Assembly: GCA_003158475.1 (NCBI GenBank)
Contig: PMJR01000094.1
Location: 1 to 37,526, forward strand
DNA from: Ignavibacteriota bacterium
GTDB taxonomy: Bacteria > Bacteroidota > Ignavibacteria > UBA10030 > UBA6906
Direction of reading: 5' to 3'
DNA: 37,526 bases
The notes under the pieces are model-generated. The model did no database searches. It was not told the DNA's origin and was given only the letters and a program-made list of their open reading frames with translations. Below, in pieces: positions 7,118 to 31,368 of the stretch. Each line of letters begins with the position of its first letter. Position 1 is the first letter of the stretch. A program made the translations under genes and the position numbers.

Positions 7118-7147
7118 CACCAACTTTTTTGACGACGGACTGTATTT

Positions 7148-8503: not shown

Positions 8504-8509
8504 AGGAGG
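8504..8509 (+). promoter_or_regulatory. Strong Shine-Dalgarno site for the repeat protein
   Basis: AGGAGG sits 6 nt before ATG 8516, a near-ideal ribosome-binding site. Most neighbouring genes have weak or no such site, so this gene may be translated at a high level. Confidence 0.7.
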
Positions 8510-8515
8510 AAAAGA

Positions 8516-9607
8516 ATGGATAACGCACCGGCAACACCCCCGAAGAAATCGAAGCGCCCCTTATGGATCGGCGTGGGAGTAGTGGCAGCATGCTTCGTGA
8601 TTTATATAGCGTTTCACGGTTGGCCCCCGATCGACAACGCGTCAGGGACGATCGGGGCGGCGAATAAGTACCGCGCCGGCCAGATGAGCGAGAAGGATGT
8701 CCGCCTGCAGAATCCCGAAGTGCAGAAGATCCTGCAAAACGACAAGATACAGGCGATCATCAACAACGACGGATTCAAATCGGCACTTGCCACGCCGGCA
8801 TTCACGGCCGCAATGTCAAGCCCGGCGTTTACGGCCGCGCTTGCCACTCCCCAGCTTGCCTCCGCGCTTGCACAGCCGGGCCTCGCAGCTGCGCTGGCGA
8901 CGCCCGCTCTTGCTGCCGCCATGGCTTCTCCGGCGTTCACGACTGCGCTGGCAACGCCCCAGCTGGCTTCTGCGCTTTCAGCCCCGGCATTCACTGCGGC
9001 GCTCTCATCGCCTGCATTTACCGCTGCGCTGGCATCCCCGGCGTTCACGTCGGCTCTCAGCCAGGGTCACCTGACGGCTGCATTGACGGCTGCGAACCTG
9101 ACGAGCCCCGCCCTGAAGGCGGAACTTAAGGCGACGCTCGCCTCTCCCGCACTTCAATCTGCGCTCAAAACCCCCGAACTGCAGGCAGCTCTGTCATCCC
9201 CTGCGCTCTCTGCCGCGATGCAGAGTCCGGCTCTTCAGTCGGCTTTGCAGGCCCCGTCACTTCAGGCATCATTGAAGTCGCCGGAACTCCAGTCGGCGCT
9301 GAGTGCACCCGCACTTCAGGCGGCACTACAGACACCGGCTCTCCAGTCGGCCCTGCAGGCCCCTGCGCTTCAGTCGGCGCTGAGTGCACCCGCACTTCAG
9401 GCGGCACTCCAGACACCGGCGCTCCAATCGGCACTTCAGGCCCCGGCGCTTCAGGCGGCGCTGAGCGCACCTGCCCTCCAGGCGGCACTGCAGACACCGG
9501 CTCTCCAGTCGGCGCTCACGAGCCCCGAGCTCCAGGCGGCACTCACAAGTGCGGCGTTCACATCCGCGCTCACCAGCGGCGCATTTGGAGCCCAGGCCCC
9601 GCAATAA
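8516..9607 (+). CDS. Membrane-anchored protein of 33 nine-residue repeats
   Basis: This 363-residue protein has a basic N terminus, one membrane segment (about 18-34) and a short linker. Residues 66-362 then form 33 consecutive nonapeptides with no register loss. The consensus is S/T/A-P-A/E-L/F-Q/T-S/A-A-L-x. The first units (NPEVQKILQ, NDKIQAIIN) are divergent and resemble the NP/DP-rich helices of STI1 chaperone-binding motifs; later units are nearly pure. Each unit looks like a short helix capped by Ser/Thr-Pro-Glu, so the array may be a string of two-turn helices outside the membrane. I do not recognise a characterised family. It follows the sigma/anti-sigma pair with a strong ribosome-binding site and ends at a terminator, so it is probably part of that regulon. 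Expansion by slippage is likely, since units share long DNA identity. Confidence 0.85.
   Translation: MDNAPATPPKKSKRPLWIGVGVVAACFVIYIAFHGWPPIDNASGTIGAANKYRAGQMSEKDVRLQNPEVQKILQNDKIQAIINNDGFKSALATPAFTAAMSSPAFTAALATPQLASALAQPGLAAALATPALAAAMASPAFTTALATPQLASALSAPAFTAALSSPAFTAALASPAFTSALSQGHLTAALTAANLTSPALKAELKATLASPALQSALKTPELQAALSSPALSAAMQSPALQSALQAPSLQASLKSPELQSALSAPALQAALQTPALQSALQAPALQSALSAPALQAALQTPALQSALQAPALQAALSAPALQAALQTPALQSALTSPELQAALTSAAFTSALTSGAFGAQAPQ
8711..9601 (+). repeat. Array of 33 in-frame 27-bp (9-codon) repeats
   Basis: The coding DNA for residues 66-362 has a strict 27-bp period. The 5' half is divergent, with PAFTAAL-type units. The 3' half is homogeneous, with PALQSAL-type units. 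One irregular stretch (QGHLTAALT, AANLTSPAL, KAELKATLA) keeps the 9-residue register although its proline is displaced. Confidence 0.9.
9296..9538 (+). repeat. Three tandem 81-bp higher-order repeats
   Basis: Copies at 9296-9376, 9377-9457 and 9458-9538 each begin GCGCTGAG(T/C)GCACC and encode three nonapeptides. They differ at a limited number of positions, mostly synonymous. This is a recent triplication of a 27-residue block inside the nonapeptide array. Confidence 0.88.
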
Positions 9608-9643
9608 GCTCGCGTGCCTGTGCGGGATTTGCGGTCAAACTGC

Positions 9644-9687
9644 AGGAGGCGTTCTTCTTGATTGAGAAGAACGCCTCCTCTTTTTTT
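9644..9687 (+). terminator. Intrinsic terminator after the repeat-protein gene
   Basis: A perfect 15-bp inverted repeat (AGGAGGCGTTCTTCT at 9644-9658, AGAAGAACGCCTCCT at 9665-9679) with a 6-nt loop is followed by seven T bases (9681-9687). It closes the sigma/anti-sigma/repeat-protein transcript. Confidence 0.95.
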
Positions 9688-9788
9688 GATCTGAGCGATG
9701 AAGCCGGCCCGGGTCTTGCTTTTTGTGCCTGAAAGCCTGATAATCTCCCCAGTTCTGTCTCATCTTCCCTCCACAGCCGGCACGCCCC

Positions 9789-12700: not shown

Positions 12701-12794
12701 CGAATCGACGCTCTCATTCGGCTACGCGACCGCCGTGGAGAAACGGGAGAAGATGACGCAGGAGGTCATGGTGTCGCTCAAGATACTGCGCTGA
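9789..12794 (+). CDS. Exported peptidase MA-like metalloprotease with propeller and barrel domains
   Basis: This protein of up to 1001 residues has a signal peptide, a gluzincin-type peptidase domain, TolB/WD40-like propeller blades (about 340-620; SPDGSQLIGAL and SEDGTRLYGSSYYSG are typical) and a C-terminal region (about 690-1001) rich in alternating aromatic and polar residues that looks like an outer-membrane beta-barrel. The peptidase shows HELVH (H143, E144, H147) and a downstream glutamate in WYVESIA (E197) as the third zinc ligand. It probably sits in the outer membrane with the propeller and protease in the periplasm or outside. The substrate is unknown. The longest frame starts at TTG 9789; GTG 9852 would place the signal peptide (RALLLSLLIAALSPSGLYG) right at the N terminus and may be the true start. 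No good ribosome-binding site decides this. Confidence 0.85.
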   Translation: MRLVSQSVHPHRVRRACSALRVHYPLRALLLSLLIAALSPSGLYGQLFERETDNLRLVYYSKAHEYLVPHIVGCFENAFRFESRLFDYRPAEKVNVLLQDFGDYASGAANTVPFDFMSIGIAPFSYVYETMPAEERFNLMMMHELVHVMTMDKPSPRDSFFRSMFLGKVAPIPEQPLSMLYAYFTGPRWYAPRWYVESIAVFMETWMAGGLGRALGAYDEMVFRTMVRDSSYIFDVVGLEAEGTKVDFQVGAASYLYGTRFISYLALQHGPGPLLQWFIQSPGCSAGYSAQFEEVYHASLDDEWQRWIGWEKRWQQANLDSLRRYPITPYRNVTRGAMGSVSRSFLDQGANRTYVAVNFPGQTPHIASIDVTTGSVENLHEVRGGALFYVTSLTYDPASRTLFYTADNNHWRDLYSYEVPTGTSRLLMKDVRTGDFAFNRGDRSLWGVRHFNGISTLVRIPYPYNEWNQVLSFDYGKDIFDIDISPDGSQLIGALTHVDGKQFLIRMKTSALLAGDASFDTLYDFVNSTPANFVFSEDGTRLYGSSYYSGVSNIVRYDIAKRAMEWVTNGETGFFRPLPLSRDSLLAYHFTGRGFEPVVIADRTVTDVNPVGYLGQAVVDSFPVLKTWALPPPSAINADSVTTSAGVYSPMGNIRLASVYPIVEGYKVYPGYGLRFNFSDPLFLHRIDLSASYTPNRSVPGDERLHAAFNYNFWEWGLNGAWNGADFYDIFGPTRVSRKGSSLGLNYRNYLTFEEPESLEFSGDLAGYWGLERLPEYQNIAVTFGRFYSFNAAVKYSLLTRSLGAVEEENGIRWELSSLNDEVNGVVYPRVYGSLESGTLLPIDHSSVWLRAAAGYSPGNRAEPFSNFYFGGFGNNWVDHGVIRRYREYYAFPGATLNSIGGTNFGKLLLEWVLPPLRFRRAGGESAYCTWAQLALFSGGIATNMDDPALAQTVGDIGAQLDFRFVFFSALESTLSFGYATAVEKREKMTQEVMVSLKILR

Positions 12795-17511: not shown

Positions 17512-18216
17512 GTGGCGGCGGGCGGATTCGTCACGCTCCGGCGCGAGGTGATCGCTTGCCGCCTCTGTCCGCGACTCGTGAGCTGGCGTGAGGAGACTGC
17601 GCGCAGCAAGGTTCGCCGCTTTGCCGAACATGAATACTGGGGAAAGCCGATCCCCGGATTTGGAGACCCGGATGCCCGGCTCCTCCTGGTCGGCCTGGCC
17701 CCGGCGGCGCACGGAGGGAACCGCACGGGGCGCATGTTCACCGGCGACGAGAGCGGCAACTGGCTTTTCCGGGCGCTCCACAGGGCGGGGTTTGCGAGCC
17801 AGCCCGAATCCGTCGGCACCTCCGACGGGCTCTCGCTCACCGACTGCTATATCACCGCGACGTGCCGCTGCGCCCCTCCGCAGAACAAGCTCCTCCCCCT
17901 CGAGATCCGGAACTGCCGCCCGTTCCTTCACCGTGAGATCGCGTTGCTCGGGAACGTGCGGGTCGTTGTCGGCCTCGGCCGTATCGGATTCGACGCCGCC
18001 CTCACCGCATTCCGGGAGATGTCCCTGATCGACTACAGGAAGAGGCCCCTCTTCGCTCACGGCGCCCGCTACAGATTCGGCCGGTTCACGTTCATCGCCT
18101 CATTCCATCCGAGCCAGCAGAACACATTCACCGGGCGGCTCACCATGCCGATGCTCGACCGGATATTCCGCACCGCCCGCGCCGCCGTCGCCGTAACGCG
18201 ACAAGGCTGTCATTGA
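17512..18216 (+). CDS. Family 5 uracil-DNA glycosylase (UDGb)
   Basis: This 234-residue DNA repair enzyme removes uracil and other deaminated bases from DNA. Motif 1 is GLAPAAHGGNRTGR (residues 61-74), where family 5 enzymes lack the usual polar catalytic residue; motif 2 is HPSQQNTFTGRL. Four cysteines for a 4Fe-4S cluster are present: C16 and C19 (CRLC), one in TCRCAPPQ (C118 or C120), and C135. It starts at GTG 17512, 4 nt after the M16 gene, with GGAAGGGGGGAAG as a strong ribosome-binding site. Its last 7 nt overlap the end of the convergent acsV gene. Confidence 0.93.
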   Translation: MAAGGFVTLRREVIACRLCPRLVSWREETARSKVRRFAEHEYWGKPIPGFGDPDARLLLVGLAPAAHGGNRTGRMFTGDESGNWLFRALHRAGFASQPESVGTSDGLSLTDCYITATCRCAPPQNKLLPLEIRNCRPFLHREIALLGNVRVVVGLGRIGFDAALTAFREMSLIDYRKRPLFAHGARYRFGRFTFIASFHPSQQNTFTGRLTMPMLDRIFRTARAAVAVTRQGCH

Positions 18217-20126
18217 CGATGCACGACGGGAGCCGTTTTGACGGTTGGGAAGAGGGTGCTATCGGTGTGGGGAAGGAACAAGGCGCTTGTATACTGGTCC
18301 ATATACGCAGGATTCGTGTTCAACTCAACATATGTCATGCTCCGGGCCAGCTTTGACATTCGCTCCCTATACTCTCTTGAAACGAGCGACTTCGATGCCC
18401 CGGCAAGAGACGAGTTCCCGAGGTAGCTGAACCTGCTTCGCGGCAGATCGGGGATCAGCCCTATGGTAATGGCGTCCTCCAGATTCAAGAACCTTCCAAA
18501 ACCGCCGGCGATGTAGACACGGTCGATCTCGCCGATTCCGATGCCGGCGTGGGTAAGCAGAAGCCCGATTGCAGAATACACCGCTGCCTTCGCCCTCATG
18601 ATGTTCTCAATGTCCGCTTCGCTGACCGAGATTGCCGCCTCCGTCCCGTCTTCTCCTCCAGGGACGACCATGTAGGTTCCCCGCCTGCCGTCTATCGCAA
18701 TGGCTGGAGATTGCCTCTCGCGCCTGAACTTTCCGGCCGGGTCGATCCACCCGGTCCGGTACAAGCCGGCCAGAAGGGAAATCATTCCCGAGCCACAGAT
18801 TCCCACCGGTCTGGTATCGCCGATTGTCCAGCACTTTGCGGAGCCGGTCTCGGGATCAATTTCGACGCGCTCGATCGCCCCCGCGGCCGCACGCATTCCC
18901 TGCCCGATCCCCCCCCCCTCGAACGCCGGTCCGGCCGAGCAGGCGCACGTGAGCAGGAAATCGCGGTTGCCGACGACCAATTCGCCGTTCGTGCCGATGT
19001 CCATAAAAAGGCTCACGGAGCCGGAATCCCCGGTCAACCCTGCGCAGAGCAACCCTGCGGTGATGTCGCCGCCGACATAACTCCCGACTCCCGGACAGAA
19101 GAAAAGCCGGGATTGTGCGTGGATATGGATGCCGACTTCACCCGCCGTGTACCGGGAAGCTTCAAGCAGCGTTGGCGTGTACGGAGCCAGCCTGATGTGC
19201 TCCGGGTCGAGTCCCAGAAGCAGATGCATCATCGTCGTGTTGCCGGCGATCACCGCGCCGGTGATCTCCTCCGGCGGAAGGTCACAGCGCCGGGCGACTT
19301 TCCGGATCAGGTTATTGATGGTACCCAGGACGCGGATGCGTAGTTCCTCCCTGCGCACCGGGTCGCGGGCATAGTGGATCCTGCTGATGACATCCAATCC
19401 GCAGGCAATCTGTCCATTGTAGTCGGTCCGCGTCGCCACAGCCCGCGCGGTCTCCAGACAGACAAGCTGAACAGCCACGGTCGTTGTCCCGACATCGACC
19501 GCAACGCCGTACGTGGACGGCGGCCGATCTCCCGGCCTGACGTCGATCACCGCGCATGAGCCCCGGGAAGGCATGAGGGTCACACTGACCGCCCCGTTGT
19601 CATTCCTCAATGCATCCGCCAGTGTGCGAACCACAGGGAGAGGATACTCGGGCTCCTCAATCCCGTTTTCTTTCCGTAGTACACGGGAGAGCCGCTCCAG
19701 ATCTGAAAGACCATCTTCGAGTTGAGGCTCCGGCACGTGAAGGAGCATCGTCCGGACCAGGGGGTCGATCTTCGACTGTTCCACCAGCGGTTGGCTGTCG
19801 TCCGGCCAGGAGTCGTCCCCGTCTTCAATGAACTTCCCTCCGGTGCGCCCCGCGAGCTCCGGCACATCGACTGTCAATTCGGAATCGAGGACCGTCGTTC
19901 TGCAGGCGAGGACATATCCTTCGTCGACCGCCTGCTGCGGAAGGATCCCCAGGCTGTCCGCGTTCGTGCGACCGGCAGTCACGCGGACGATGCATCTTCC
20001 ACAGACCCCTTCGCCTCCGCAGGGAGCATCGATATCGACTCCCGCCCCGCGAGCGGCTTCCAGCAGCTGCGTCCCTCGAGCAGCGTCGGTGCTTCTGGAG
20101 GAAGGTGTGAAGACGACCCGTGTCAT
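18210..20126 (-). CDS. acsV: Reductive activator of corrinoid iron-sulfur protein (RACo)
   Basis: This 638-residue protein re-reduces the corrinoid protein when its cobalt oxidises to Co(II), using ATP hydrolysis. The N-terminal 2Fe-2S domain has C36, C42, C45 and C75 (APCGGEGVCGRC, ACRT). A linker domain is followed by an ASKHA-type ATPase core (DUF4445) with VAVDVGTTTVAVQL, IAGNTTMMHLLLGL, MDIGTNGELV and YIAGGFGRFLNLEDA. The start ATG overlaps the acsC stop by one base (TGATG); a longer frame exists but lacks family similarity in its extra 24 residues. It is the last gene of the CODH/ACS operon, next to its corrinoid protein substrate. No terminator was seen after it; it converges on the uracil-DNA glycosylase gene. 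Confidence 0.93.
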   Translation of the reverse strand: MTRVVFTPSSRSTDAARGTQLLEAARGAGVDIDAPCGGEGVCGRCIVRVTAGRTNADSLGILPQQAVDEGYVLACRTTVLDSELTVDVPELAGRTGGKFIEDGDDSWPDDSQPLVEQSKIDPLVRTMLLHVPEPQLEDGLSDLERLSRVLRKENGIEEPEYPLPVVRTLADALRNDNGAVSVTLMPSRGSCAVIDVRPGDRPPSTYGVAVDVGTTTVAVQLVCLETARAVATRTDYNGQIACGLDVISRIHYARDPVRREELRIRVLGTINNLIRKVARRCDLPPEEITGAVIAGNTTMMHLLLGLDPEHIRLAPYTPTLLEASRYTAGEVGIHIHAQSRLFFCPGVGSYVGGDITAGLLCAGLTGDSGSVSLFMDIGTNGELVVGNRDFLLTCACSAGPAFEGGGIGQGMRAAAGAIERVEIDPETGSAKCWTIGDTRPVGICGSGMISLLAGLYRTGWIDPAGKFRRERQSPAIAIDGRRGTYMVVPGGEDGTEAAISVSEADIENIMRAKAAVYSAIGLLLTHAGIGIGEIDRVYIAGGFGRFLNLEDAITIGLIPDLPRSRFSYLGNSSLAGASKSLVSREYRERMSKLARSMTYVELNTNPAYMDQYTSALFLPHTDSTLFPTVKTAPVVHRQ

Positions 20127-21466
20127 CAGGAATGCAGTCTCGCTTTCACGAATCCTTCGAGATCGCCGGCTTCCTGGGGTCCGACCGTCACCTTCCAACC
20201 CGGAAGATTCTCCTCCAATTCCCCGCTGATCTGGGCGACATAGCCGGGGATGATGATCTCCCGGGAGGAGACGGTCTTTTCCAGACCGATGTCCCGTATG
20301 AACTTCCCGATGGAGTTACCCGTGAACTTTCCTGCAGCCCAGGCGGTCAGAACGCTCATTCCCTCGCACTCCGGGACGACGAGCCAGGCGCTGATGTTGC
20401 TGTTCTCAATCTCGCCCGAGACTATGAAATAGGTCAATGAAAAATTGGTGGTGACGAACACGGGAGAATCGGGGCCGGGTTCCCCTATTTCATACACCCT
20501 GGGCTCCACCTGAATGGGCTTTTGCGGGTCCGTATAAATGTTCAGGCGGAGCGTCATGAGCGATGCAATCTGCGCGGCATTGAAGGAAGGGAGGACGCAG
20601 ATCCCGCCGTATTTTGTTATTTCCGTCACAGCACCGACCGTCTCATCCAGCGGGTGTCCCCGGTCGACGAATTTCAAAGCGGGATACCCAAGCGGCCTGA
20701 AATTGTCTTTCAACGCCCCCCTCCGTGCGATGGAGTTGGTCTGAAAATGTTCCGCCGGCGAAAGGGTTTCGAAATGCAGAATGATGTCGTTGACGCCTTC
20801 GCCCCGCAACCGGGCTGTAAGCGCCGCCAGGCCGTTCAGATCGGGCGCCGTCACGGCGAGCGCGTGCCCATTGTCCCGTGCTGAGGCGGAAAGCACCCCG
20901 GCGGTCTGCTCCGTGGCGAACGCCAGGACGCCCCGCGCTCCTTTCGTGGCCGCGGCGGCGGAGACCAATGCACCCGGATCCGCGCTCCGCATCACCAGGG
21001 GGCGGTGCGTTACGTCCTGCGCCCTCGTGCAGAGGGAGACAAACCGGGCGGGGTCGCCCCCCCGCTGCGTGACGGCAATCATATCCACCTGCAGCTTTTC
21101 CCCGACGCGCTCCAGCTCATACTCCCGCACCAGCCTGAGCGTGCGCTCGAGCTCCTCGGGGGAGTCCGTGTCGCTGACGTTCACGGCGATTGCGGTCTGA
21201 TGAACGAACGTTTTTTCGTGGCGGTAGAGCTCGGTCTCCCCACCCACTCTCAGGGAACGGTCCGTCCCGAGCTCGATGCACCGGACCGGAGGTTCGCTTG
21301 CTGCGCCCAGTACCTGCTTCGCCTCGTCCGAGGCGTACGGGCACTGCGAGAGGTCGGCCTTTTTCGCGGCCAGTTTCATCGCAAACGCCAGGCACGTGTT
21401 GGAACCGCACTCCTTGCAGTTGGTTTTCGGCAGCAGCTTCTGAATCTGTAATCCCGTGAGCGCCAT
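20126..21466 (-). CDS. acsC: Corrinoid iron-sulfur protein large subunit (CFeSP gamma)
   Basis: This 446-residue subunit carries the 4Fe-4S cluster and helps bind the cobamide that shuttles the methyl group to acetyl-CoA synthase. The cluster motif at the N terminus has C17, C20, C25 and C42, the spacing expected in AcsC/CdhE. A TIM-barrel domain follows, then the C-terminal cobalamin-binding domain with TTNFSLTYFIVSGEIE and TGNSIGKFIRDIGLE. Its usual dimer partner, the small subunit AcsD, is not a separate gene here but is the C-terminal part of the preceding gene. Only 3 nt separate the two genes, and GGAGG lies about 9 nt before the ATG. Confidence 0.95.
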   Translation of the reverse strand: MALTGLQIQKLLPKTNCKECGSNTCLAFAMKLAAKKADLSQCPYASDEAKQVLGAASEPPVRCIELGTDRSLRVGGETELYRHEKTFVHQTAIAVNVSDTDSPEELERTLRLVREYELERVGEKLQVDMIAVTQRGGDPARFVSLCTRAQDVTHRPLVMRSADPGALVSAAAATKGARGVLAFATEQTAGVLSASARDNGHALAVTAPDLNGLAALTARLRGEGVNDIILHFETLSPAEHFQTNSIARRGALKDNFRPLGYPALKFVDRGHPLDETVGAVTEITKYGGICVLPSFNAAQIASLMTLRLNIYTDPQKPIQVEPRVYEIGEPGPDSPVFVTTNFSLTYFIVSGEIENSNISAWLVVPECEGMSVLTAWAAGKFTGNSIGKFIRDIGLEKTVSSREIIIPGYVAQISGELEENLPGWKVTVGPQEAGDLEGFVKARLHS

Positions 21467-21469: not shown

Positions 21470-24400
21470 CTATTCCCTCCCGTCCAGCAACTGGAAAATT
21501 GTCCTCTTCAGCGCCATCGCGGCTTCGGGGTGGTACATAATGAAGAGGTCCGCGCCCGCGTAGAGGAGGCTGACCGCTGTCGACAGTTCCCAGAGGGAGG
21601 CGCGCTCGTGCAATGCCCCCCAGGCGGGGAAGGCGTCCTCCGTTGCCTTCAGCTCCTTGAGTTTCGCGCACTCCTGTCCCGGCGTCACGATCATCGGGCC
21701 TGCCAGCATCCTGTCTCCATTCAGGGCGGTCATCCGGATACGCTCCATGACCGAGTACGTGTACTCGATCCCGTACCCCGTTGCCCCTGTCATGGGATCC
21801 ATCACGATGCGTTCAGGCTTCACGTCCATGTTCATGAGCAGGATGTTGAGCTGCTTGCCGATGTTCACGTCGATCGGGCTCTGGGCCACAAGCGTGTGCC
21901 CGTAGGCGAGGGCGGATCCCGCGATGGTCCGATAGTTGTCCTGTTCCACCCAGTTCAGGAGCAGATTCTCACCGGCACATGCCTGGGCGACAGCTTTCAT
22001 CACCTCGTTGTTCTTCTGAAAATGGTTGTGGCCCGTAACGATAAGCGGCACATCCACAGCCCGGAGCACGTTGCGGACAACTTCGACCGCCTCCCCGGGC
22101 GAACGATCTCCTTTTTCGGGATGCGTTCCTTCCAGCCGGACGCTTATCATGTCGGCGCCGTATTTCTCCACGCAGACGCGGGCCATCTCAGCCGGGTTGT
22201 CGAGGAGGCCGCCGTAGACCTCGCGCAGCACCGGTGGGTATTTATCGCTGGTGACGTCAAACACCTCCATTGCCACCAGGGGCCGAAATGGCATCTCTCC
22301 CTCGAACAGATGAAACGGCATACAGCTCTCCCCCCCGATCGTGTACGACCTGCCCCGGGTTCCCCCTTCTTTCGCCGTGGCGCCCAGTTGAACCTTCCAG
22401 ACAGGAACTTCGCATTTCTCTTTTCGGACCGTAAATGCCGTCACCTGCGCAAGGCGCTCTGATGCGCTCTGTGTGCGGGGGCGAGGGGCCGCCGGCACGC
22501 CGGCCGGTTCTTTCGTTTCCGGCGGGCCTGCCGGTGACGGAGGAGTAGCCCCGGCGGGCGTCGACCCGGGAGAAGCGGACGTCGCGTGAGAGACTGACGA
22601 TTCGACAAGTGCGCTCATGTCATCCATTGCAAGGGCCGGATGTCCCGCCCGTTCCATGAAGGCGCGGACTGCATGCGCGTCCGTTGCTGCAACTTCGTCC
22701 GCGATCTGATCGAGAAGACCGGGGACGCCTTCCTCGTCAAACCGCTTTTCGAGATCCTCCTTCAACAACTCCTTCAACGCCTTTGGCATCCACACAAGCC
22801 GCCTGTGTCCCCCTTCGCCACGGAGAAATTTCTTCGAGGAAACAAAAATCTTGCCGCAACCCATGAACCCCGGGGTCTGCTGGCCTCCGCCGACGGTCCC
22901 GGCAAGCGCTGAGAATGTCATGCCGACGGGGGTCTCTCCCTGAAACTCACGGTTGACCACCATCACCCCGTTGCATTCCGGGACGTACGCGCAGATCACC
23001 TCGAAACAGCCGCAGCTTGTCATCGGCCGGTCCATGATCGAATACGCGCAAAAACTCGCAACGGTCTTGTGGCTGTTGATGTAGACGAAATCGTCAACCC
23101 CCTTCCAGACTCCCTTGACGGGATCCAGGCAGGCGCCTTTCTTGACCGGCTGATTGGGACCGGTCTCGTCGATTTCGAACGCCGCCTTCCCATCCAGCCA
23201 GTTGTACGCCCCGCAGAGGCCGAGCCTTTCGGGCGTGATCATGCAGACGTGGTTGGGGGCGAATGACTGGCACAGCAGGCAGGAATAAAACGTGTCCACT
23301 GATTCATCCGTCATGGTTTCAAGACGCCGGTTCCGCTCGTCGTACACTCCGCGGGCGATCGCAAGCCTCTTGTCGACTTCCTGCTGGTCCGTGATGAGTG
23401 TGACGTTCACCTTGTCGACGATCGCGGGATAGTTCGAAAGGAGCTTAGCATGGAGGATCTCGCCGTAATGCTTCAGGCGCAGTCCCCTGGCGAAACCGGC
23501 CTTCGATACGCGCGTCCATACGATGTCGCGCTGCCCCATGTGCCAGATCCCTTCGGCGCCGTTCAGCAGATGGTGAACCTGCCGCTCGAGAATCGGCTCG
23601 AAATCGGTCTGCATTTTCCGCCCCGCGACCTGAACCCAGATGCCCAGGGGGAGCGCCCCCCCTTCTGCCACCGCGTCGATATCCGGGCCGATCACCCTGA
23701 TCTCCCCGTCGTTGATCTCGCCGAGCTCTGCCGAGGTGACGAATTCAAATGCTGTGGTGATGTTCCCGCCGAATTCGACATGCATGTCCGCCTTCCGCAC
23801 GCGTTCGCCTTCGAAGGCCGGACCGTACGGCACCGGAATGGGCACTTTCGTGATCTTCACCTTGCAGCCCCGGACTTCGAGCGCCTTCTCCACCATGACG
23901 TCATAGGAGACCGGGGACACGACATGCTCATAGAGGCAGAGGCCCGAAGGGAGGATTTGGTCGATGTCGGTCTCCGCAATCGTGGGGAAGCCGAAATTGA
24001 TCGCACCCGCGGCCTGTGCGTGCTTCTCGTCGTCGACCGGGCCCAGGGCAAGGACAAACGCAAACACCCGGTTCTTGTTGTAGTTCAATACCCTCCCGTA
24101 ATCGCCGCTTTTGGCTCCGCCGAAGGAGAGAGCCGCGCGTGTCGCAAAACCCAGGGCGTGAACGCAGGCCGTGACATCGTCTCCGAAAGGAACGAGCCGG
24201 GTATCCCACCCCAATTGGACCCCCTCCTCATGCAGCTGCCGGGCCATGGACTTTCCGTCCGTGCCGGCCGCAAGGAAGACGTAGAGGTTTTTCTCCTGTA
24301 ACTCGCGGGCAATCTTCACCGCGATTGCATTGGTCGGGCAATAGCCGACGCAGGCGGCGAAACCGGGTGCCGTGCCGTCCACGAACTCGATTCCGCGCTC

Positions 24401-24814
24401 CCTCATGATCACGTCGTTGGCTGCCCCCAGCCAGATGGATCCGTTGTCCGGATTGGACTTCGTCAGGTAGGGAAGGGGAACCCGGGTGTACTTGATCCCT
24501 TCGATGATTTCGTCCGCGAAAAGGGACGCCATGCCGGCATCGAGCGCATGCCCGAGATAGGGGAGCCAGAGACGATCGCCCGGCAGGGGGGGGAGGAGCC
24601 GTTTTGCCTCCTCCAGCAGCCTGCTCAGGCCGCCGAGCGTGTCGATCTTCAGTCCGAGTATGCCGTAGGAGATCGGGAGATAGTAGGCGGTGTTCGGGAA
24701 TTCGACCCTTGTATCGGCGCTCTTCTCCTCAAGCGCCTGCGTGAGTTCCCTCTCCGCGCGGGCCACCAGTTGGTGCGCGCCACGTATCGCTCTCGTGACG
24801 ATCAGTTTTGACAT
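21470..24814 (-). CDS. Fused acetyl-CoA synthase and CFeSP small subunit (AcsB-AcsD)
   Basis: This 1114-residue chain joins two complete enzymes. Residues 1 to about 738 are acetyl-CoA synthase, which makes acetyl-CoA from CO, a methyl group and CoA. All A-cluster ligands are present: C512, C515, C524, C534 for the 4Fe-4S cubane and the C601-G602-C603 motif for the distal nickel. As I recall the Moorella numbering (506, 509, 518, 528, 595, 597), each is offset by exactly six. Residues 739-782 form a Pro/Ala/Ser/Thr-rich linker. Residues from about 790 to 1114 are the corrinoid protein small subunit AcsD, a TIM barrel (KVQLGATAKEGGTRGRSYTI, DPMTGATGYGIEYTYSVMER). AcsD normally dimerises with AcsC, the next gene. 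No stop or frame change interrupts the junction, and both halves are full length. The fusion may hold the methyl donor close to its acceptor site. Confidence 0.94.
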   Translation of the reverse strand: MSKLIVTRAIRGAHQLVARAERELTQALEEKSADTRVEFPNTAYYLPISYGILGLKIDTLGGLSRLLEEAKRLLPPLPGDRLWLPYLGHALDAGMASLFADEIIEGIKYTRVPLPYLTKSNPDNGSIWLGAANDVIMRERGIEFVDGTAPGFAACVGYCPTNAIAVKIARELQEKNLYVFLAAGTDGKSMARQLHEEGVQLGWDTRLVPFGDDVTACVHALGFATRAALSFGGAKSGDYGRVLNYNKNRVFAFVLALGPVDDEKHAQAAGAINFGFPTIAETDIDQILPSGLCLYEHVVSPVSYDVMVEKALEVRGCKVKITKVPIPVPYGPAFEGERVRKADMHVEFGGNITTAFEFVTSAELGEINDGEIRVIGPDIDAVAEGGALPLGIWVQVAGRKMQTDFEPILERQVHHLLNGAEGIWHMGQRDIVWTRVSKAGFARGLRLKHYGEILHAKLLSNYPAIVDKVNVTLITDQQEVDKRLAIARGVYDERNRRLETMTDESVDTFYSCLLCQSFAPNHVCMITPERLGLCGAYNWLDGKAAFEIDETGPNQPVKKGACLDPVKGVWKGVDDFVYINSHKTVASFCAYSIMDRPMTSCGCFEVICAYVPECNGVMVVNREFQGETPVGMTFSALAGTVGGGQQTPGFMGCGKIFVSSKKFLRGEGGHRRLVWMPKALKELLKEDLEKRFDEEGVPGLLDQIADEVAATDAHAVRAFMERAGHPALAMDDMSALVESSVSHATSASPGSTPAGATPPSPAGPPETKEPAGVPAAPRPRTQSASERLAQVTAFTVRKEKCEVPVWKVQLGATAKEGGTRGRSYTIGGESCMPFHLFEGEMPFRPLVAMEVFDVTSDKYPPVLREVYGGLLDNPAEMARVCVEKYGADMISVRLEGTHPEKGDRSPGEAVEVVRNVLRAVDVPLIVTGHNHFQKNNEVMKAVAQACAGENLLLNWVEQDNYRTIAGSALAYGHTLVAQSPIDVNIGKQLNILLMNMDVKPERIVMDPMTGATGYGIEYTYSVMERIRMTALNGDRMLAGPMIVTPGQECAKLKELKATEDAFPAWGALHERASLWELSTAVSLLYAGADLFIMYHPEAAMALKRTIFQLLDGRE

Positions 24815-24846: not shown

Positions 24847-26781
24847 TCAGACGGCCAATTCTCTTCGCATTCCCATGTCGTACAGAACCCGTTCCTTGCC
24901 TTTGTCGATCCCCAACGCCTTCCGTTTGAGATCGATGTGGTCGATCATGAGCGCCGCCATCCGGTGGATGTCCGGCTCGACCGCCCAGCTCCCGCCCAGC
25001 ATCTTCTCATGTTCCGCGGAAAGATGACGATAAAACGCCTCGCTCCCCTTGACAGGCAGACCGATGCCGAAGACGGTGAAAACACCGGAAGCCACGAAGT
25101 ACTGGCCGATGGCGATGGCTTTCTCGCTCATCCATTCCGGCGCGGCGCCGGCAACGGGGAGATCCGCGATGTCTTTGCCCAGGCCGCCGGCCCTGACCAT
25201 CTCGGACAGGGCGACAAGGATCCGGCTGTTGTCCACGCAGGAGCCCGCGTGAAGCACCGGCGGCATGCCCACCGTGCGGCAGACCTCCGCCAGGCCTTTC
25301 CCGGCATACTCCGCGGCGGATTCGGGGGTCATCAATCCCGCCTTCGCGCAGGCGATCGCCGAGCACCCCGTCTGAATGACGAGGACATCGTTTGCGATCA
25401 ATTCCCTGACCAGCTCCACATGCCCCTGGTCGTGGACAACCTTCGGGTTGCAGCATCCCACCACCCCCGCAACTCCCCTGATTCGACCGTTAATGATATT
25501 GCTGTTGAGTGGAAGATACGACCCGCGGAAGCTTCCGCCCAGCATGGAGAGGATCGCTTCATGGCTGAAACCGGCGATGAGATCCATCTTCTCCCGCGGA
25601 ATGTCGACCCGCCTCCGGTTCGGGAAATTCATAATCGCTTCCTGAACGATCGCCCGGGCCGAAGGGAGGGCGTTCTCTTCCGAAAAGGGGCGGTGGAGTG
25701 CCCCCGTCATTCTCCCTTTCGCAGAAGTGGTGATCAGGCGTGTATGGTAGCATCTGCAGAGATCCGGCAGCGACGGCATAACGCACTGCACGTCGACGAT
25801 CATCGCCTCAACGGCTCCCGTAATGACGGCCAGCTCCTGCTGGAGGACGTTGCCCGCGACCGGCAACCCGTGGCGCATCAGGATCTCGTTCGCCGTGCAG
25901 CACATCCCCACCAGATTGATCCCTCCCGCTCCCTGGGACTTCGCCATGTTCACCATCTCTTCCTCACGGGAAGCGACGACGAGCATCTCGGAGAGAACGG
26001 GCTCGTGTCCATGGAGCACGATGTTGACATCGCGTTCCGAAAGGACGCCCAGATTCACCTCCCCCCGGAGGGGGGAGGGAGTGCCAAAGAGGATGTCCTG
26101 GAGTTCCGTGGCGATCATCGAGCCCCCCCAGCCGTCGGACAATGCCGTCCTGGTTCCCTGAAGCATGATGTTCCGGTGGTCCTGGTCTGTCCCCATGGTC
26201 GTGCGGTGCAGCATCTCGACGATCTCCCTGTCGATGCCCCGGGGGACAACGTTCAAGCGGCGCCAGAGAGCCTGCCGCGGCTCTGGTGCACGCCGGATGA
26301 AGGGGATCTCCCCTTCCTGTTGCCCGAAAATCTCCAGCGCTTTTTCCGCCACATCAATGGCGATCTCCTGCGTGGACCGGTTCTCCACCGTGACATCCAG
26401 CATGGCGGCGACCTTTTTGAGCTTGAAGGCGTCCCTGACGGCATATCCGGAATCCGGGTGCCGTGCAGCCAGCAGCAGTGCGTTGGCGACGTCGCGCCCG
26501 TGGTCGGAATGTGCGGCGGCTCCCGCCGCAATCATCCTCGCGAAATTCCTTGCCACGATCACTTCAGCGGACGCGCCGCATACCCCCGTGCGGGGGCCTT
26601 CGCCAAACGGATCGATGCGGCAGGGACCCATATTGCACGTCCGGCAGCAGATCCCCAGTTCGCCGAAACCGCACCGGGGTTCCTGATTCTCCGAGCGGTG
26701 CCATACTGTTTCGATCTCCTCCTGGCCGACCTTTTCAAGCAGGTACGTCACGGATGCGTCAACGCTTTTTCCTGTTATCAT
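24847..26781 (-). CDS. acsA: Nickel carbon monoxide dehydrogenase catalytic subunit
   Basis: This 644-residue Ni-Fe enzyme interconverts CO and CO2. The N terminus has C37 and C45 for the intersubunit D-cluster and C46, C49, C54 and C68 for the B-cluster (CGFGELGICCRTCNMGPC), the spacing of CooS/AcsA. C-cluster ligand motifs are all present: HGHEPVLSEM, GMCCTANEIL, VDVQCVMPSL, VVGCCNPK, IQTGCSAIACAK and HAGSCVDNSR. The length matches bacterial CODH, and it is not the larger archaeal CdhA type. It sits 32 nt before the ACS fusion gene, and the CooC and CooF genes upstream provide nickel insertion and electron transfer. GAGGGGGT lies just before the start. It could also be labelled cooS; the context with ACS favours acsA. 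Confidence 0.96.
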   Translation of the reverse strand: MITGKSVDASVTYLLEKVGQEEIETVWHRSENQEPRCGFGELGICCRTCNMGPCRIDPFGEGPRTGVCGASAEVIVARNFARMIAAGAAAHSDHGRDVANALLLAARHPDSGYAVRDAFKLKKVAAMLDVTVENRSTQEIAIDVAEKALEIFGQQEGEIPFIRRAPEPRQALWRRLNVVPRGIDREIVEMLHRTTMGTDQDHRNIMLQGTRTALSDGWGGSMIATELQDILFGTPSPLRGEVNLGVLSERDVNIVLHGHEPVLSEMLVVASREEEMVNMAKSQGAGGINLVGMCCTANEILMRHGLPVAGNVLQQELAVITGAVEAMIVDVQCVMPSLPDLCRCYHTRLITTSAKGRMTGALHRPFSEENALPSARAIVQEAIMNFPNRRRVDIPREKMDLIAGFSHEAILSMLGGSFRGSYLPLNSNIINGRIRGVAGVVGCCNPKVVHDQGHVELVRELIANDVLVIQTGCSAIACAKAGLMTPESAAEYAGKGLAEVCRTVGMPPVLHAGSCVDNSRILVALSEMVRAGGLGKDIADLPVAGAAPEWMSEKAIAIGQYFVASGVFTVFGIGLPVKGSEAFYRHLSAEHEKMLGGSWAVEPDIHRMAALMIDHIDLKRKALGIDKGKERVLYDMGMRRELAV

Positions 26782-26804: not shown

Positions 26805-28076
26805 CTAGGATGACTGATATGCATCGATGACCGTCTTTCCGACGTTGCGCAGGAGGCCTGCGAAATTAAACTGACTGCTCATCAACTCCTCTTCGAACGC
26901 TGAGACATCCGTTCTCTGCCGGATGAGCGACAGGAGCACGCCCGCATCGTCGATCCGTCCGAGAAGGATGATTCCCCGTATCCGGTGATCCTTCAGGACG
27001 ATCTTTCTGTACAGCGCGCTCTCCCGCTTCCCGTGAATAAGCACGCGACACCCGGACTCTTCCCGGGGATTTGTCATGCCGTAGGCGATGAGGGGAATGC
27101 CGCCGATATTCAGGGCATTCATTCCGACTGCACCGTCGTAGGAGGCTTTCCGGCCGATCATGTTCAGCCCTGCGACACGTCCCTGCTGCACCGCGCAGGT
27201 CCAGAGGGCGTTCACCGCATACTCCTCCCTGGCGATATCGTATGTTTCTGCCACGTCGCCGGCGGCAAATATGTTCTCCTGGGTTGTCTGCATGGTGGCA
27301 CTTGTCACGATGCCCGAGCGTACCGCAATACCGGTCCCTTCCGCCAGCGAGACGTTCGGCCGGACACCTTTCGCAACAATCAGCAGCTCACACGGGATCG
27401 TCCGTCCCTGATCGGTCACGACGGCGACAAGCCTCCCTTCCCGGTGGTGGATGCCGGAACAATCGGACCCCTCCAGCACCCCGACCTTCCGAGTGCGCAA
27501 CCTCCCGGTAATGATCCGCGATGCTTCCCTGTCGATCATCTGCGAGAGGACACGGTCCGACTTCATCACCACTGTCGTCTCCATGCCGGACTCGCCCAGG
27601 GCACATGCCGTCTTCAATCCGATGAGTCCGCCTCCCAGAACGACCGCTCCTCCGGCGCGTACGGCGCACTCCCTGATGGCCTCCGCATCGGCACGTGTGC
27701 GCAGTGTGCAGACACCGCCGATGTCGCCCGGGATATTGTCAGGCAACTTTGCGGAGGAGCCGGTCGCAATCAGGAGTCTGTCGAAAGGATAGATGCTCCC
27801 GTCGTTGCAGACGACGTGCTGGCTCTGTGCGTTGAGCCGGACCGCGCGCTTCCCCTCATGCAGGGTCACCTGCATGTCGCGGTGGAAACTGGCGTCCCGG
27901 TACCGGAGTCCTTCCTCTGCGATCGCGCCTGAAAGCCAGTATGGCAACAGGCATCGCGAGTAGAGGGGATCACGCTCGTCCGACAGTTGAACGATGGAGC
28001 TCTTCCAGTCGTATGTCCTGACGGCTTCGATGGCCGCCGTGCCGGCTGCGCTGCACCCGACGATCAGAATGTTCAT
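26805..28076 (-). CDS. FAD-dependent NAD(P)H oxidoreductase linked to CODH
   Basis: This 423-residue flavoprotein belongs to the pyridine nucleotide-disulfide oxidoreductase family. The FAD motif is at residues 7-12 (VGCSAAGTAA), an NAD-binding motif lies near 145 (VVLGGGLIGLKTA), and the second FAD contact is AAGDVAE. Cys42 in SRCLLPYW aligns with the redox cysteine of NADH oxidases. Flavoproteins of this kind next to CODH and CooF are thought to pass electrons between ferredoxin and NAD(P). The gene overlaps the CooF-like gene by 4 nt and lies 23 nt before acsA. The exact electron partner (NADH or NADPH) cannot be read from sequence. Confidence 0.88.
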   Translation of the reverse strand: MNILIVGCSAAGTAAIEAVRTYDWKSSIVQLSDERDPLYSRCLLPYWLSGAIAEEGLRYRDASFHRDMQVTLHEGKRAVRLNAQSQHVVCNDGSIYPFDRLLIATGSSAKLPDNIPGDIGGVCTLRTRADAEAIRECAVRAGGAVVLGGGLIGLKTACALGESGMETTVVMKSDRVLSQMIDREASRIITGRLRTRKVGVLEGSDCSGIHHREGRLVAVVTDQGRTIPCELLIVAKGVRPNVSLAEGTGIAVRSGIVTSATMQTTQENIFAAGDVAETYDIAREEYAVNALWTCAVQQGRVAGLNMIGRKASYDGAVGMNALNIGGIPLIAYGMTNPREESGCRVLIHGKRESALYRKIVLKDHRIRGIILLGRIDDAGVLLSLIRQRTDVSAFEEELMSSQFNFAGLLRNVGKTVIDAYQSS

Positions 28077-28558
28077 GTGCGAGAGGCACGTGCCTGAATT
28101 TCATCCCTTTCACAGTAGACCAGAGCACGCGTCGGGCACGCGTCAACGCATGCCGGCGAAGGGCGGCCGGCGCAGTGATCGCATTTCATGGCACGGCCGA
28201 TCCCTTCGTGCCTTACGATCGCTCCGAAAGGGCACACCATGACGCAGGACCAGCAGCCGACGCATTTTTCCGGATCGATCCGGACCTCCCCGGTCTTCAC
28301 ATCTCTGCGTATCCCCCCGGAAATGCACGCCTGGACGCACACGGGCTCCTCGCAATGCCTGCACTGCAGCGCAAGCGTCCGGGAACGGTATAGTATCCCG
28401 CTCCCATCGATACGTTCGACGCGAATGCGCCGGGTGGGCGGCACCGGTTCGAGCAGCGCCCCGGAAATTGTTCCGGACTCCGAATGCTGAGCGGCACATG
28501 CCAGCTCGCACGACCGGCACCCAAGGCATTTTTCGATGCGGCAAATCACATGTTTCAT
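28073..28558 (-). CDS. cooF: CooF-like polyferredoxin
   Basis: This 161-residue electron-transfer protein of the HycB/CooF family has about four 4Fe-4S motifs. The first uses C11, C14, C17 and C21 (CLGCRSCELAC). A central pair includes CRHCEEPVC, CVGCWSCVMVCPFGAI and KCDHCAGRPSPACVDACP. CooF accepts electrons from the CODH B-cluster; here it probably connects CODH with the flavoprotein encoded next. It overlaps both neighbours by 4 nt (ATGA), so three genes are translated as a coupled set. Confidence 0.9.
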   Translation of the reverse strand: MKHVICRIEKCLGCRSCELACAAQHSESGTISGALLEPVPPTRRIRVERIDGSGILYRSRTLALQCRHCEEPVCVQACISGGIRRDVKTGEVRIDPEKCVGCWSCVMVCPFGAIVRHEGIGRAMKCDHCAGRPSPACVDACPTRALVYCERDEIQARASRT

Positions 28559-29343
28559 AAAGGGACTTCCCCCGATCCTCCGTGAATCCCCGCCTCACTC
28601 AGGAATTGACCGAGCAGTTTGTTGACCGGATTGTCCGCCGTGACGGGCCAGATGCCTTCGCCGTTTCTTCCGAGTCCGGCAATTTCTGCATCTTCCGGAA
28701 GGCTCATCACCCAGTCAGCCCCGGTCGCCTCTCTTAGCTCATCGATCTGCGAACCGGACAGCGTTCCCTGAACGCGATTGACGATCACTGCAAGCTTTCC
28801 GTACCGGACATTCATCTCCCGCGCCAGATCATACAACCTTTTCACTGTCAGGAGTCCCTGCTGCGATGAATCGGCGACAAAGACGAGCAGATCGACATTC
28901 TGGAGGATCCTCCGGGAGAGGTTTTCCAGGCCGGCCTCATTGTCCAGAATCACGAAAGGGTACCGGGAGGATGTCCGGGAGAGGACGTCCCTCAGAACAT
29001 TGTTCGCATAGCAGTAGCATCCCGGTCCCTCCGGGCGCCCCATGGCAATCAGGTCGAAATCGTCGGCTTCCACAAGACATTCTGCAATCTTCATCTCGAG
29101 CAATTGTTGCTTGGACACGCCGGCGCCGATCCCCCTGGAGGCAAGCTCCCGGGTCTGTTCCCTCGCACGCCCCAGTGTCTGTCCGGCAGTCACATGCAGC
29201 GCCGCATCCAGGCAGGTATTGGGATCGGCATCGACCGCGAGGACCGGCTTGCAGCCGCGCCCGATAAGGTGTTTGACAAGCAAGGCTGCAAGGGTCGTCT
29301 TTCCGGTCCCCCCTTTTCCCGTTATGGCGACGACATAGCTCAT
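28555..29343 (-). CDS. CooC/AcsF-type nickel-insertion ATPase, second copy
   Basis: This 262-residue MinD-type P-loop ATPase has GKGGTGKTT at residues 9-17 and a CxC metal-binding motif at C109/C111 (GPGCYCYANN). CooC proteins bind nickel through such a CxC pair in a dimer and load it into CODH; the related AcsF assists acetyl-CoA synthase. It is clearly distinct from the CooC encoded just upstream, which carries GGCACPE. One copy may serve CODH and the other ACS, but which is which is not determinable. A GTG nine bases upstream (29352) would add three residues; ATG 29343 better matches the family N terminus. Confidence 0.88.
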   Translation of the reverse strand: MSYVVAITGKGGTGKTTLAALLVKHLIGRGCKPVLAVDADPNTCLDAALHVTAGQTLGRAREQTRELASRGIGAGVSKQQLLEMKIAECLVEADDFDLIAMGRPEGPGCYCYANNVLRDVLSRTSSRYPFVILDNEAGLENLSRRILQNVDLLVFVADSSQQGLLTVKRLYDLAREMNVRYGKLAVIVNRVQGTLSGSQIDELREATGADWVMSLPEDAEIAGLGRNGEGIWPVTADNPVNKLLGQFLSEAGIHGGSGEVPL

Positions 29344-29370
29344 CTGCTCCACCCGTGTGTCATGTGCGCT

Positions 29371-30141
29371 TCATTGCTGAAGTCTTTCCAGGATTGAAAC
29401 GAAGTGTTTGAGCATCTCTTCGCTCAGTCCCTCCAGAACGGACCTCCCGGTTCTATCCGCCAGCCGGATCTCCTCCGAGTACGGGATCATACCCAGCAGC
29501 CGGTCATCCGGAAACGCCCGCCGGATGAACATAGCATCTCCTTCGCCGGTGATCTTGTTGGCAACAAATTGAACTTTTTTCATATGCAGCTCTTCTGCCA
29601 TGCGGACCACACGGTGCGCCGTCTCTACCGACCGTTGGCCCGGTTCCAGGACGACGATCATCGTATCCACCCCGCTCGCCGTTCCCCGGCCAAGGTGCTC
29701 CACGCCCGCCTCCATGTCCATGATCAGACATTCGCTCTTCCCCAGCACAAGGTCGCTCACCAATGCCCTGATCAGGACGCTCTCCGGGCACGCGCAACCG
29801 CCACCCCCCCGTTCGACGGCTCCCAGCACCAGGAGCGCGACACCCTCGTGCATGAGCGCATAGCGGTCCGCGATGTCTGATACCTCGGGATTGAGCTTGA
29901 ATATCTGGCCGTACTGTTTGACCTTGGCGCCAGTTCTCTCTTCGATGAGAGCAACCTGTCGTGCAATCGGAACGATTGATTGCCGTCTCTCCTTCGTGAG
30001 GCCGAGACATGCGGCAAGGTTCGCGTCGGGGTCCGCGTCAAGTGCGAGCACTTTCTGCCCGCGCCGGGCCATGAGCAGGGCAAGTCCCGCCGCCAGCGTG
30101 GATTTGCCGACGCCCCCCTTCCCCGTCACCGCAACTTTCAT
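29371..30141 (-). CDS. cooC: CooC-type nickel-insertion ATPase, first copy
   Basis: This 256-residue P-loop ATPase has GKGGVGKST at residues 7-15, a DADPDANLA switch and the CxC metal site C116/C118 within GGGGCACPE. That motif is typical of CooC1, which delivers nickel to the CODH C-cluster in an ATP-dependent way. It lies 39 nt after the methionine-synthase-like gene and 27 nt before the second CooC-type gene. GAAGGGAGG is found upstream of the ATG. Confidence 0.92.
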   Translation of the reverse strand: MKVAVTGKGGVGKSTLAAGLALLMARRGQKVLALDADPDANLAACLGLTKERRQSIVPIARQVALIEERTGAKVKQYGQIFKLNPEVSDIADRYALMHEGVALLVLGAVERGGGGCACPESVLIRALVSDLVLGKSECLIMDMEAGVEHLGRGTASGVDTMIVVLEPGQRSVETAHRVVRMAEELHMKKVQFVANKITGEGDAMFIRRAFPDDRLLGMIPYSEEIRLADRTGRSVLEGLSEEMLKHFVSILERLQQ

Positions 30142-30180: not shown

Positions 30181-31269
30181 TCAGGGCGAGACGCCCGCAA
30201 AGCCGTACTTGTCCCTCATCGTGCGGGAGAGGGATTCCGTCATGGCGAATACTTTTTCCGCGTCGGCCGGTTCCATCGAACCAGTGCCGCAGGATGGGGT
30301 AAGGAGGGACTGATCGATGATCAACTGCCTGTCGATCCCCTGCGATGCGAGATGGTCGATCAATCTCTCGAGAAGGGAGACCAGCATCCCGACCGTCTGT
30401 TCGCGGATCGACACCGAGGTGGGCACCACACCCCAGGCGAGCGCGCCTCCGCCGAGGAGGTGCTTGCGGACGGCGTCGGGGTACATCGCGATCGTCTCGC
30501 CGTACCCGAATGCATCAAAATTGATGATGTCCGCGCCCGCGTCGGTCAGAATGCTCCACTCTGTGTTCCCGCAGCAGTGAACGCCCGCCAGGGCATCCTC
30601 CCGATGAATCGCTTCAACAATCTCGTGCAGGGCGGCGACGACGTCTCCCCTCTTTACGGAGACGTACGTCGAGCTGCCGAACGCGGAAAGGATCGGCTCG
30701 TCGACGAAACAGATCACCCGCTCTGCGAACGGGCGGAACTTCTGAATCTGCCACCGGCATTTCATCGCGAGTGCTTTGGCGATCACATCACGAAACGCCT
30801 CATTATAGTAGATCGCCCGCTTGTTTTCGTCGACAATCGAAAGCGCAAAGCTGCAAGGGCCGGTTGTCTGAACCTTCACAAAGGGGAGTCGCCCCGACGC
30901 CGCCCGAAGCCTCTTCTCCATTGCATAGATCCCCCCGGAGAACTCCGGACTGATGGCCATGGCGGAACAATCCCCATCCCCTTCAGAAGGATCCATCGCC
31001 TTCATATACATCTCGTAAAAACCGGCCAGGGCCTCTGAACAGTCGCCCGACGTGTCAAAGAAAATGCGGCTCTTCGGGCGGTCGATGGTGATGCAGGGGA
31101 TCCCTTCCGAATACTGAATCTCCATCTGCTCGTTCAGCCCCGCTTTGGGCAGCTGTGGCCAGAACGGGGCTTCGGACATCCGCGTCAGAGAGATCTCCAC
31201 CGCCCGATCGGGGTCCGTGAATGGCATGCTTCCTATCCCCGTTGCAAGAAACCTGGGCCGCAATAGCAT
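30181..31269 (-). CDS. Core MetE-like methionine synthase, candidate MesB
   Basis: This 362-residue protein belongs to the UROD/MetE superfamily but has only the catalytic barrel; the N-terminal folate-binding half of MetE is absent. Zinc-ligand positions are visible: H231 and C233 (GVHCCGN) and C327 (LTPSCGTGS). The N terminus LATGIGSMPFTDP and APFWPQLPK are typical of the core-MetE group. Core synthases accept a methyl group from a corrinoid protein and make methionine from homocysteine; the MesB family occurs in anaerobes with the Wood-Ljungdahl pathway. Its place as first gene of the CODH/ACS operon fits that role. A longer frame begins at 31359, but ATG 31269 has AAGGAA about 7 nt upstream. 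A corrinoid methyltransferase of the MtaA/UROD type is the alternative. Confidence 0.8.
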   Translation of the reverse strand: MLLRPRFLATGIGSMPFTDPDRAVEISLTRMSEAPFWPQLPKAGLNEQMEIQYSEGIPCITIDRPKSRIFFDTSGDCSEALAGFYEMYMKAMDPSEGDGDCSAMAISPEFSGGIYAMEKRLRAASGRLPFVKVQTTGPCSFALSIVDENKRAIYYNEAFRDVIAKALAMKCRWQIQKFRPFAERVICFVDEPILSAFGSSTYVSVKRGDVVAALHEIVEAIHREDALAGVHCCGNTEWSILTDAGADIINFDAFGYGETIAMYPDAVRKHLLGGGALAWGVVPTSVSIREQTVGMLVSLLERLIDHLASQGIDRQLIIDQSLLTPSCGTGSMEPADAEKVFAMTESLSRTMRDKYGFAGVSP

Positions 31270-31326
31270 GTCGCGATTCCTTTGCCTTCTCCTCTCCGCC
31301 TGGAGTGGCAGGGTAGGAGCTGATAC

Positions 31327-31368
31327 AAAAAAAAACCTCTTTCGCCGAACCATGGCCAAAAGAGGTTT
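31327..31368 (-). terminator. Leader terminator or attenuator upstream of CODH/ACS operon
   Basis: On the minus strand, AAACCTCTTT (31368-31359), a 16-nt loop and AAAGAGGTTT (31342-31333) form a 10-bp hairpin followed directly by a run of T (31335-31327). No minus-strand gene ends to its right; the nearest is the first gene of the operon, 58 nt downstream. It therefore most likely acts in the leader of the CODH/ACS transcript, or ends a short RNA. Confidence 0.7.

Follow-up and report, generated by a model that had tools for sequence, protein, structure and literature searches.

A single-chain fusion of acetyl-CoA synthase and the corrinoid protein small subunit in an Ignavibacteriota operon

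The carbon monoxide dehydrogenase/acetyl-CoA synthase (CODH/ACS) complex is among the oldest carbon-fixing enzymes, and of its steps the encounter of ACS with the methyl carrier is the one understood least. Here we describe a gene at positions 21470–24814 of a 37,526-nucleotide stretch of DNA (contig PMJR01000094.1 of assembly GCA_003158475.1, from an uncultured Ignavibacteriota bacterium; the whole stretch is called the window) that encodes ACS (AcsB) and the small subunit of the corrinoid iron-sulfur protein (AcsD) as one polypeptide. In the bacterial systems of Moorella, Carboxydothermus and Clostridium autoethanogenum these are separate proteins and the corrinoid iron-sulfur protein (CFeSP) stands alone (PMC11474084). 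For this stand-alone CFeSP to methylate it, the ACS of acetogens has to open, while methanogen ACS is stably associated with CFeSP in a complex of 2.2 MDa (PMC11474084). No structure of ACS with CFeSP was available when that paper appeared in 2024; entries deposited in the Protein Data Bank (PDB) in 2025 (9fzy and others, from our fold search) show such a structure in C. autoethanogenum.

Two other described systems resemble the present one in part. The archaeal ACDS complex of methanogens (CdhABCDE) also keeps ACS and corrinoid protein together and in 1:1 number, but by non-covalent association, and its ACS (CdhC) lacks the A1 domain that the fusion possesses. Dehalococcoides combines AcsB and AcsCD with the MetE-like protein MesB, without AcsE, as the present genome does with a MesB-like protein, and a transfer of the acetyl-CoA methyl group from the corrinoid protein to homocysteine by MesB has been proposed (PMC7005905, PMC7857596). 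A study of termite cooS genes gives the ACS and the small and large subunits of Treponema as separate genes (PMC3082573). Our literature search found no published description of an AcsB–AcsD fusion, although a mention in Adam et al. (2018, PNAS) is possible, and as far as that search reached the sequence-only reading of the window was right to know of no characterised enzyme with this layout. Sequence databases almost certainly hold such fused chains already. We read the gene as a real and functional fusion of single origin, belonging to an ordinary CODH/ACS in which AcsCD would serve as a mobile methyl carrier on a tether to ACS, and give this reading a probability of about 0.75.

One reading frame for AcsB and AcsD

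The open reading frame lies on the minus strand, a point that the sequence-only reading had left unstated, starts with ATG at 24814 and runs to 21470 through 1114 codons with no internal stop. Its parts are as follows.

21470–24814, minus strand: AcsB–AcsD single-chain fusion; unbroken reading frame, Pfam and NCBIfam domains of both proteins, same layout in about 75 of the 80 related loci
22616–24814, minus strand: AcsB part (acetyl-CoA synthase), residues 1–733, domains A1-A2-A3; NF040764 at 1025 bits, structure alignment, fold match
23213–23281, minus strand: A-cluster cubane cysteines C512, C515, C524 and C534; invariant in 71 fused proteins
23006–23014, minus strand: A-cluster nickel ligands Cys-Gly-Cys (C601, C603); invariant in 71 fused proteins
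22445–22615, minus strand: linker, residues 734–790, rich in Pro, Ala, Ser and Thr and predicted to be disordered; predicted local confidence (pLDDT), composition, comparison with relatives
21473–22444, minus strand: AcsD part (CFeSP small subunit), residues 791–1114; NF003376 at 380 bits, TM-score 0.93 to 4djd_D

The sequence-only reading had proposed an uninterrupted frame holding both proteins, and the frame together with both sets of domains, each above its cut-off, confirms that the gene encodes a complete bacterial AcsB and a complete AcsD in one chain. The Pfam domains follow one another as CODH_A_N (residues 21–109), CdhC (326–480), ACS_CODH_B_C (491–733) and CdhD (808–1047), the first of these marking the A1 domain that binds CODH and carries the CO channel. 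The NCBIfam model for the ACS alpha/beta subunit, NF040764, covers residues 10–733 (cut-off 800 bits), and the delta subunit model NF003376 matches residues 794–1110 over model positions 3–312 of 313 (cut-off 280 bits). Residues 9–733 align end to end with the ACS structures of Carboxydothermus and Moorella at about 45% identity. In an AlphaFold model of the fusion as a single chain (pTM 0.48) the AcsB part matches the folds of 3git and 6ytt, while the AcsD part, compared with the Moorella CFeSP small subunit 4djd_D, has a complete CdhD fold. The six A-cluster cysteines are all offset by +6, with exact spacing, from the Moorella numbering (C506, C509, C518, C528, C595 and C597), which bears out the claim that every ligand stands at family spacing. 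They are invariant in the 71 aligned fused relatives.

The fusion shares with the bacterial enzymes its domains including A1, its A-cluster ligands and the presence of CODH, AcsC and AcsV alongside, and differs from them in that AcsD is not a separate polypeptide of the AcsCD corrinoid protein but shares the 1114-codon frame with ACS. AcsC begins 3 nucleotides past the stop of the fusion, as had been noted from the sequence.

Spread and origin of the fusion

To compare the gene with its relatives we used the best 80 of 356 related loci (numbered with L below) from a scan of genome contigs, a sample skewed towards sequences similar to the query. AcsB and AcsD lie in one open frame in about 75 of the 80, in independent assemblies. 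Two of the others, L071 and L072, run off the ends of their contigs, and an apparent secondary split in the Hydrogenedentota locus L077 proved to be a run of N within the linker of that contig. In the Aminicenantes locus L080 acsB and acsD are genuinely separate, and a CooC gene stands between them. Within the family of the studied genome the fusion occurs in three further genomes, whole in L030 and L031 (both labelled 'Ignavibacteriae bacterium' and fen) and partial in L085, where the linker helix and AcsD share one frame. That the joined frame is an artefact of assembly or binning, as might be suspected in a draft of 153 contigs, has a negligible chance of being right given the homologous position of the junction in about 75 assemblies made independently, among relatives from the same family as well, and the absence of any repeat at the junction.

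Mapping such chains over taxonomy, which the sequence-only reading had called for, gave more than 15 phylum labels; these come from record titles, mostly of metagenome-assembled genomes, and some may be wrong. They include Ignavibacteriota, Planctomycetota, Acidobacteriota, Aminicenantes, Lentisphaerota, Verrucomicrobiota, Spirochaetota, Thermodesulfobacteriota, Myxococcota, Fibrobacterota, Sumerlaeota, Hydrogenedentota, KSB1, Bdellovibrionota, Bacillota, Actinomycetota, Synergistota and others. The frequency within classes varies: approximately 17 of 21 ACS-bearing genomes are fused in Lentisphaeria (the class of L006), where the fusion is the usual form, compared with 1 of 20 in the class of the termite Treponema locus L016 and 1 of 22 in Clostridia (the class of L043). 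The rarity implied by the sequence-only reading therefore does not hold, as the same fusion is found in dozens of lineages and derives from one origin. Open frames of more than 1000 residues in G566, G824 and G880 were considered as independent second fusions and rejected, since inspection showed separate AcsB and AcsD frames. The plasmid collection contained a single ACS, which was unrelated and unfused.

The AcsB tree comprises 113 sequences, 82 scored as fused (L071, L072 and L077 among them) and 31 as unfused, and in it the fused rows form one clade with support of 100 and a single change of state, a number that none of 500 label shuffles matched. The unfused L080 is sister to this clade. 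On the AcsD tree the fused rows group together at 97 and L080 again comes next. The trees indicate that the fusion arose once and then moved between phyla with the CODH-ACS-corrinoid operon. As the nearest unfused relative on both trees, L080 also shares the MesB-like gene and two CooC genes with the studied operon, and its CODH, AcsB and AcsD are 73%, 67% and 55% identical to the studied proteins, but its AcsB and AcsD are separate genes.

The studied copy groups with L030, L031 and L037, and this group lies close to the base of the fused clade, next to L002 and L036. Matches were found in 5 of 21 genomes of its family and, among 296 genomes drawn from the phylum, in the studied genome alone; this patchy distribution indicates that the operon was probably acquired horizontally in this lineage. 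The CODH at 24847–26781 is 73–84% identical to those of L002, L030, L031, L036, L037 and the unfused L080, and only about 50% identical to those of other fused operons; in the larger fused group another CODH gene has probably taken the place of the original one. The locus L037 (Phycisphaerales fen_1342, 6890–10513) has an AcsB and upstream genes near the studied copy (82%), while its AcsD and AcsC are near those of the Planctomycetota locus L027, a mosaic that suggests recombination inside the fused gene, near or in the linker. A fusion of single origin and wide spread offers a marker for transfer of the whole operon, and surveys in which AcsB and AcsD are counted as two proteins may mishandle the fused chains.

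The linker and the proposed tether

The linker is 57 residues long when its edges are taken from BLAST alignments, and 37 of the 57 are Ala, Pro, Ser or Thr (11, 11, 10 and 5 respectively). The sequence-only reading had placed a linker of 44 residues at 739–782; its composition stands, and the stretch with a pLDDT below 50, residues 739–779, lies close to those edges. Among fused relatives linkers are mostly 100–140 residues long, with a median of 116 and a full range of 56–243, and the short linker of the studied fusion is an exception. The longer linkers contain a conserved block, LKxEIxxEVxxxLKxxITREIVxDIIxTLSxKFLG, present in 67 of 71 aligned fused proteins, with a mean pairwise identity of 36% compared with 17% and 12% in its flanks. 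AlphaFold predicts two linker helices in L036 (786–807 and 810–825), a hairpin with a pLDDT of about 50–70. In most relatives this hairpin is flanked on both sides by disordered arms. The block is found in basal fused rows and in the studied gene's own family (L030, L031 and L085), and is thus ancestral and was lost in the studied lineage. It was lost separately in a Syntrophaceae group (L004, L005, L040 and L042), so that this helical element has disappeared at least twice with the operon retained.

Profile searches of Pfam, NCBIfam and the PDB for a known domain gave weak matches only, none convincing; the VASP tetramerisation domain matched 4 of 25 members, at best with 5e-5. The NCBIfam delta model NF003375 reaches into the linker of helix-bearing relatives, from profile position 27–45. 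Derivation of the hairpin from a leftover N-terminal extension of AcsD was rejected, as the extra length of the AcsD frames in G587, G589 and G630 is only untranslated sequence 5' of the ATG. No partner element lost together with the hairpin was detected in AcsC, CODH, AcsV or the MesB-like protein; four columns in CooC1 and one in CooC2 covary with its loss and were taken as noise.

In the mechanism that we propose, the A1 domain at the N-terminus of the fused chain would bind CODH and the AcsD part would bind AcsC, so that the AcsCD dimer, which carries the methyl group, would hang on a tether from the C-terminal end of the A3 domain. ACS would open and close as it is carbonylated by CODH and methylated by the corrinoid protein in turn, and throughout this the flexible linker would hold the methyl-cobalt centre near the A-cluster. 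Covalent fusion would in this way do what the archaeal complex does by association, keeping AcsCD within reach of the A-cluster. We infer assembly with AcsC and CODH as well as the effect of the tether and a 1:1 ratio of AcsD to ACS, the latter two following from the architecture. A rough random-coil estimate for 57 residues puts the two ends about 60 angstrom apart and the local concentration at a millimolar level. A disordered linker of this length would be compatible with more than one geometry, in keeping with the range of lengths seen. Some points weigh against this reading: linkers spanning 56–243 residues mean that no precise geometry can be required; the AlphaFold model covers a single chain, so that the placement of AcsD on ACS and the assembly with AcsC and CODH are proposals; and processing, of the transcript or of the protein, may yield AcsB and AcsD separately.

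The variable linker also bears on whether the tether matters at all. The fusion could be real but nearly neutral, coupling only expression and stoichiometry with no effect on methyl transfer. Linker lengths and the 12–17% identity of the flanks would fit this, as would the repeated loss of the helical element without loss of the operon and the fact that unfused ACS and AcsD function in characterised acetogens. We nevertheless consider it unlikely, though a serious contender, since every intact assembly sampled within the clade retains the fusion, across more than 15 labelled phyla (the break in L077 being the gap of N), and the conservation of the linker helix hints at a role beyond that of a spacer. 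That the finished chain is cut within the linker, so that AcsB and AcsD end up as two proteins, is much less probable still: the linker is predicted to be exposed and disordered, but no conserved cleavage motif was seen in the linkers of fused proteins, and a conserved helical element would be odd in a discarded piece.

Alternatively, the long hairpin linker may be a docking or oligomerisation module, the ancestral fused enzyme forming a larger assembly of which the studied copy is a reduced version. The prevalence of the hairpin, the two helices predicted in L036 and the weak tetramerisation-domain matches point this way; the low pLDDT of the hairpin, the failure to find a convincing database match and the lack of any co-lost partner element point the other way, and we regard this explanation as possible but doubtful. 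A broader version, which we offer tentatively, is that fused enzymes form a separate single-origin class of CODH/ACS in which the linker hairpin docks or oligomerises and the corrinoid domain serves as a swinging arm for the methyl group, moving among A-cluster, activator and methyl donor, like the lipoyl arms of pyruvate dehydrogenase, with the studied lineage showing that the hairpin is dispensable. The fusion itself is real, widespread and uncharacterised, and as a natural construct it provides a defined 1:1 object for structural and kinetic work.

Operon context and metabolic direction

The genes around the fusion run on the minus strand in the order MesB-like protein, two CooC-like ATPases, ferredoxin-like protein, FAD oxidoreductase, CODH, AcsB–AcsD fusion, AcsC and AcsV.

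30181–31359, minus strand: MetE/MesB-like zinc methyltransferase candidate; weak NF002119 match, HCC...TPSCG motif
29371–30141, minus strand: CooC-like ATPase 1; CbiA, conserved in fused operons
28555–29352, minus strand: CooC-like ATPase 2, nickel-insertion type by context; CbiA/AAA_31, conserved in fused operons
28073–28558, minus strand: 4Fe-4S ferredoxin-like protein; Fer4_11 and related Pfam matches
26805–28076, minus strand: FAD/NAD(P)H-type oxidoreductase; Pyr_redox_2 and Rubredoxin_C
24847–26781, minus strand: Ni-CO dehydrogenase AcsA/CooS, 644 residues; TIGR01702 at 647 bits (cut-off 478)
20126–21466, minus strand: AcsC, corrinoid protein subunit, 446 residues; NF003195 at 500 bits over 1–443, Fe-S domain PF04060 at 12–44
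18210–20198, minus strand: AcsV/RACo-type reductive activator of the corrinoid protein; NF040756 at 647 bits, under the cut-off of 800, with RACo Pfam domains

BLAST comparison with the related loci shows that most fused loci conserve the order MesB-like protein, CooC1, CooC2, CODH, AcsB–AcsD, AcsC and AcsV. Of the related operons, those of L030, L031 and L037 alone contain the ferredoxin-like and oxidoreductase genes.

The source genome, a 3.7 Mb draft estimated to be 97.85% complete, contains no formyl-tetrahydrofolate synthetase (Fhs, PF01268), and neither does the genome of L030. No stand-alone AcsE is found in the source genome either, its only two Pterin_bind genes being FolP-like and a MetH-like frame of 1188 residues; both of the genes by which we judged a complete formate-based reductive Wood-Ljungdahl pathway are thus missing, while MetF (a frame of 636 residues) and MetH are present. 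The methyl branch therefore looks incomplete, and the complex may cleave acetyl-CoA or use a methyl source other than formate. It is plausible that acetyl-CoA is cleaved to supply methionine, or that it is made with methyl groups of another origin. Fhs accompanies other fused operons, for example in Syntrophaceae, either next to them or in the same genome, and the fusion thus does not go with one direction only.

The MesB-like protein is a candidate partner for the methyl groups, and this is the weakest step of the proposal. Its match to the methionine synthase model NF002119 is weak (7e-5, 22 bits, cut-off 258), and searches of Pfam and the PDB with it gave no match, but the zinc motif HxC...C is present as HCCGN...TPSCG and is conserved in 54 operon neighbours. 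For MesB core methionine synthases the published criterion is a score to DET0516 of at least 130–173 bits (PMC7857596). The likeness to Dehalococcoides is limited by this weak relation to the methionine synthase model, and by the absence there of CODH and MetF, whereas the studied genome has CODH, MetF and MetH.

The MesB-like candidate gene heads most fused operons. A gene for a homocysteine S-methyltransferase (PF02574) lies 5' of the MesB-like gene in L008 (287–1192) and in 21 other loci, and is not found in the studied window. A gene for a DUF3786 protein lies near fused operons in L054 (16591–17205) and 15 other loci. Elsewhere in the window, a plus-strand open reading frame of 1001 residues without a Pfam match (9789–12794) adjoins a gene for a PrsW-type protease.

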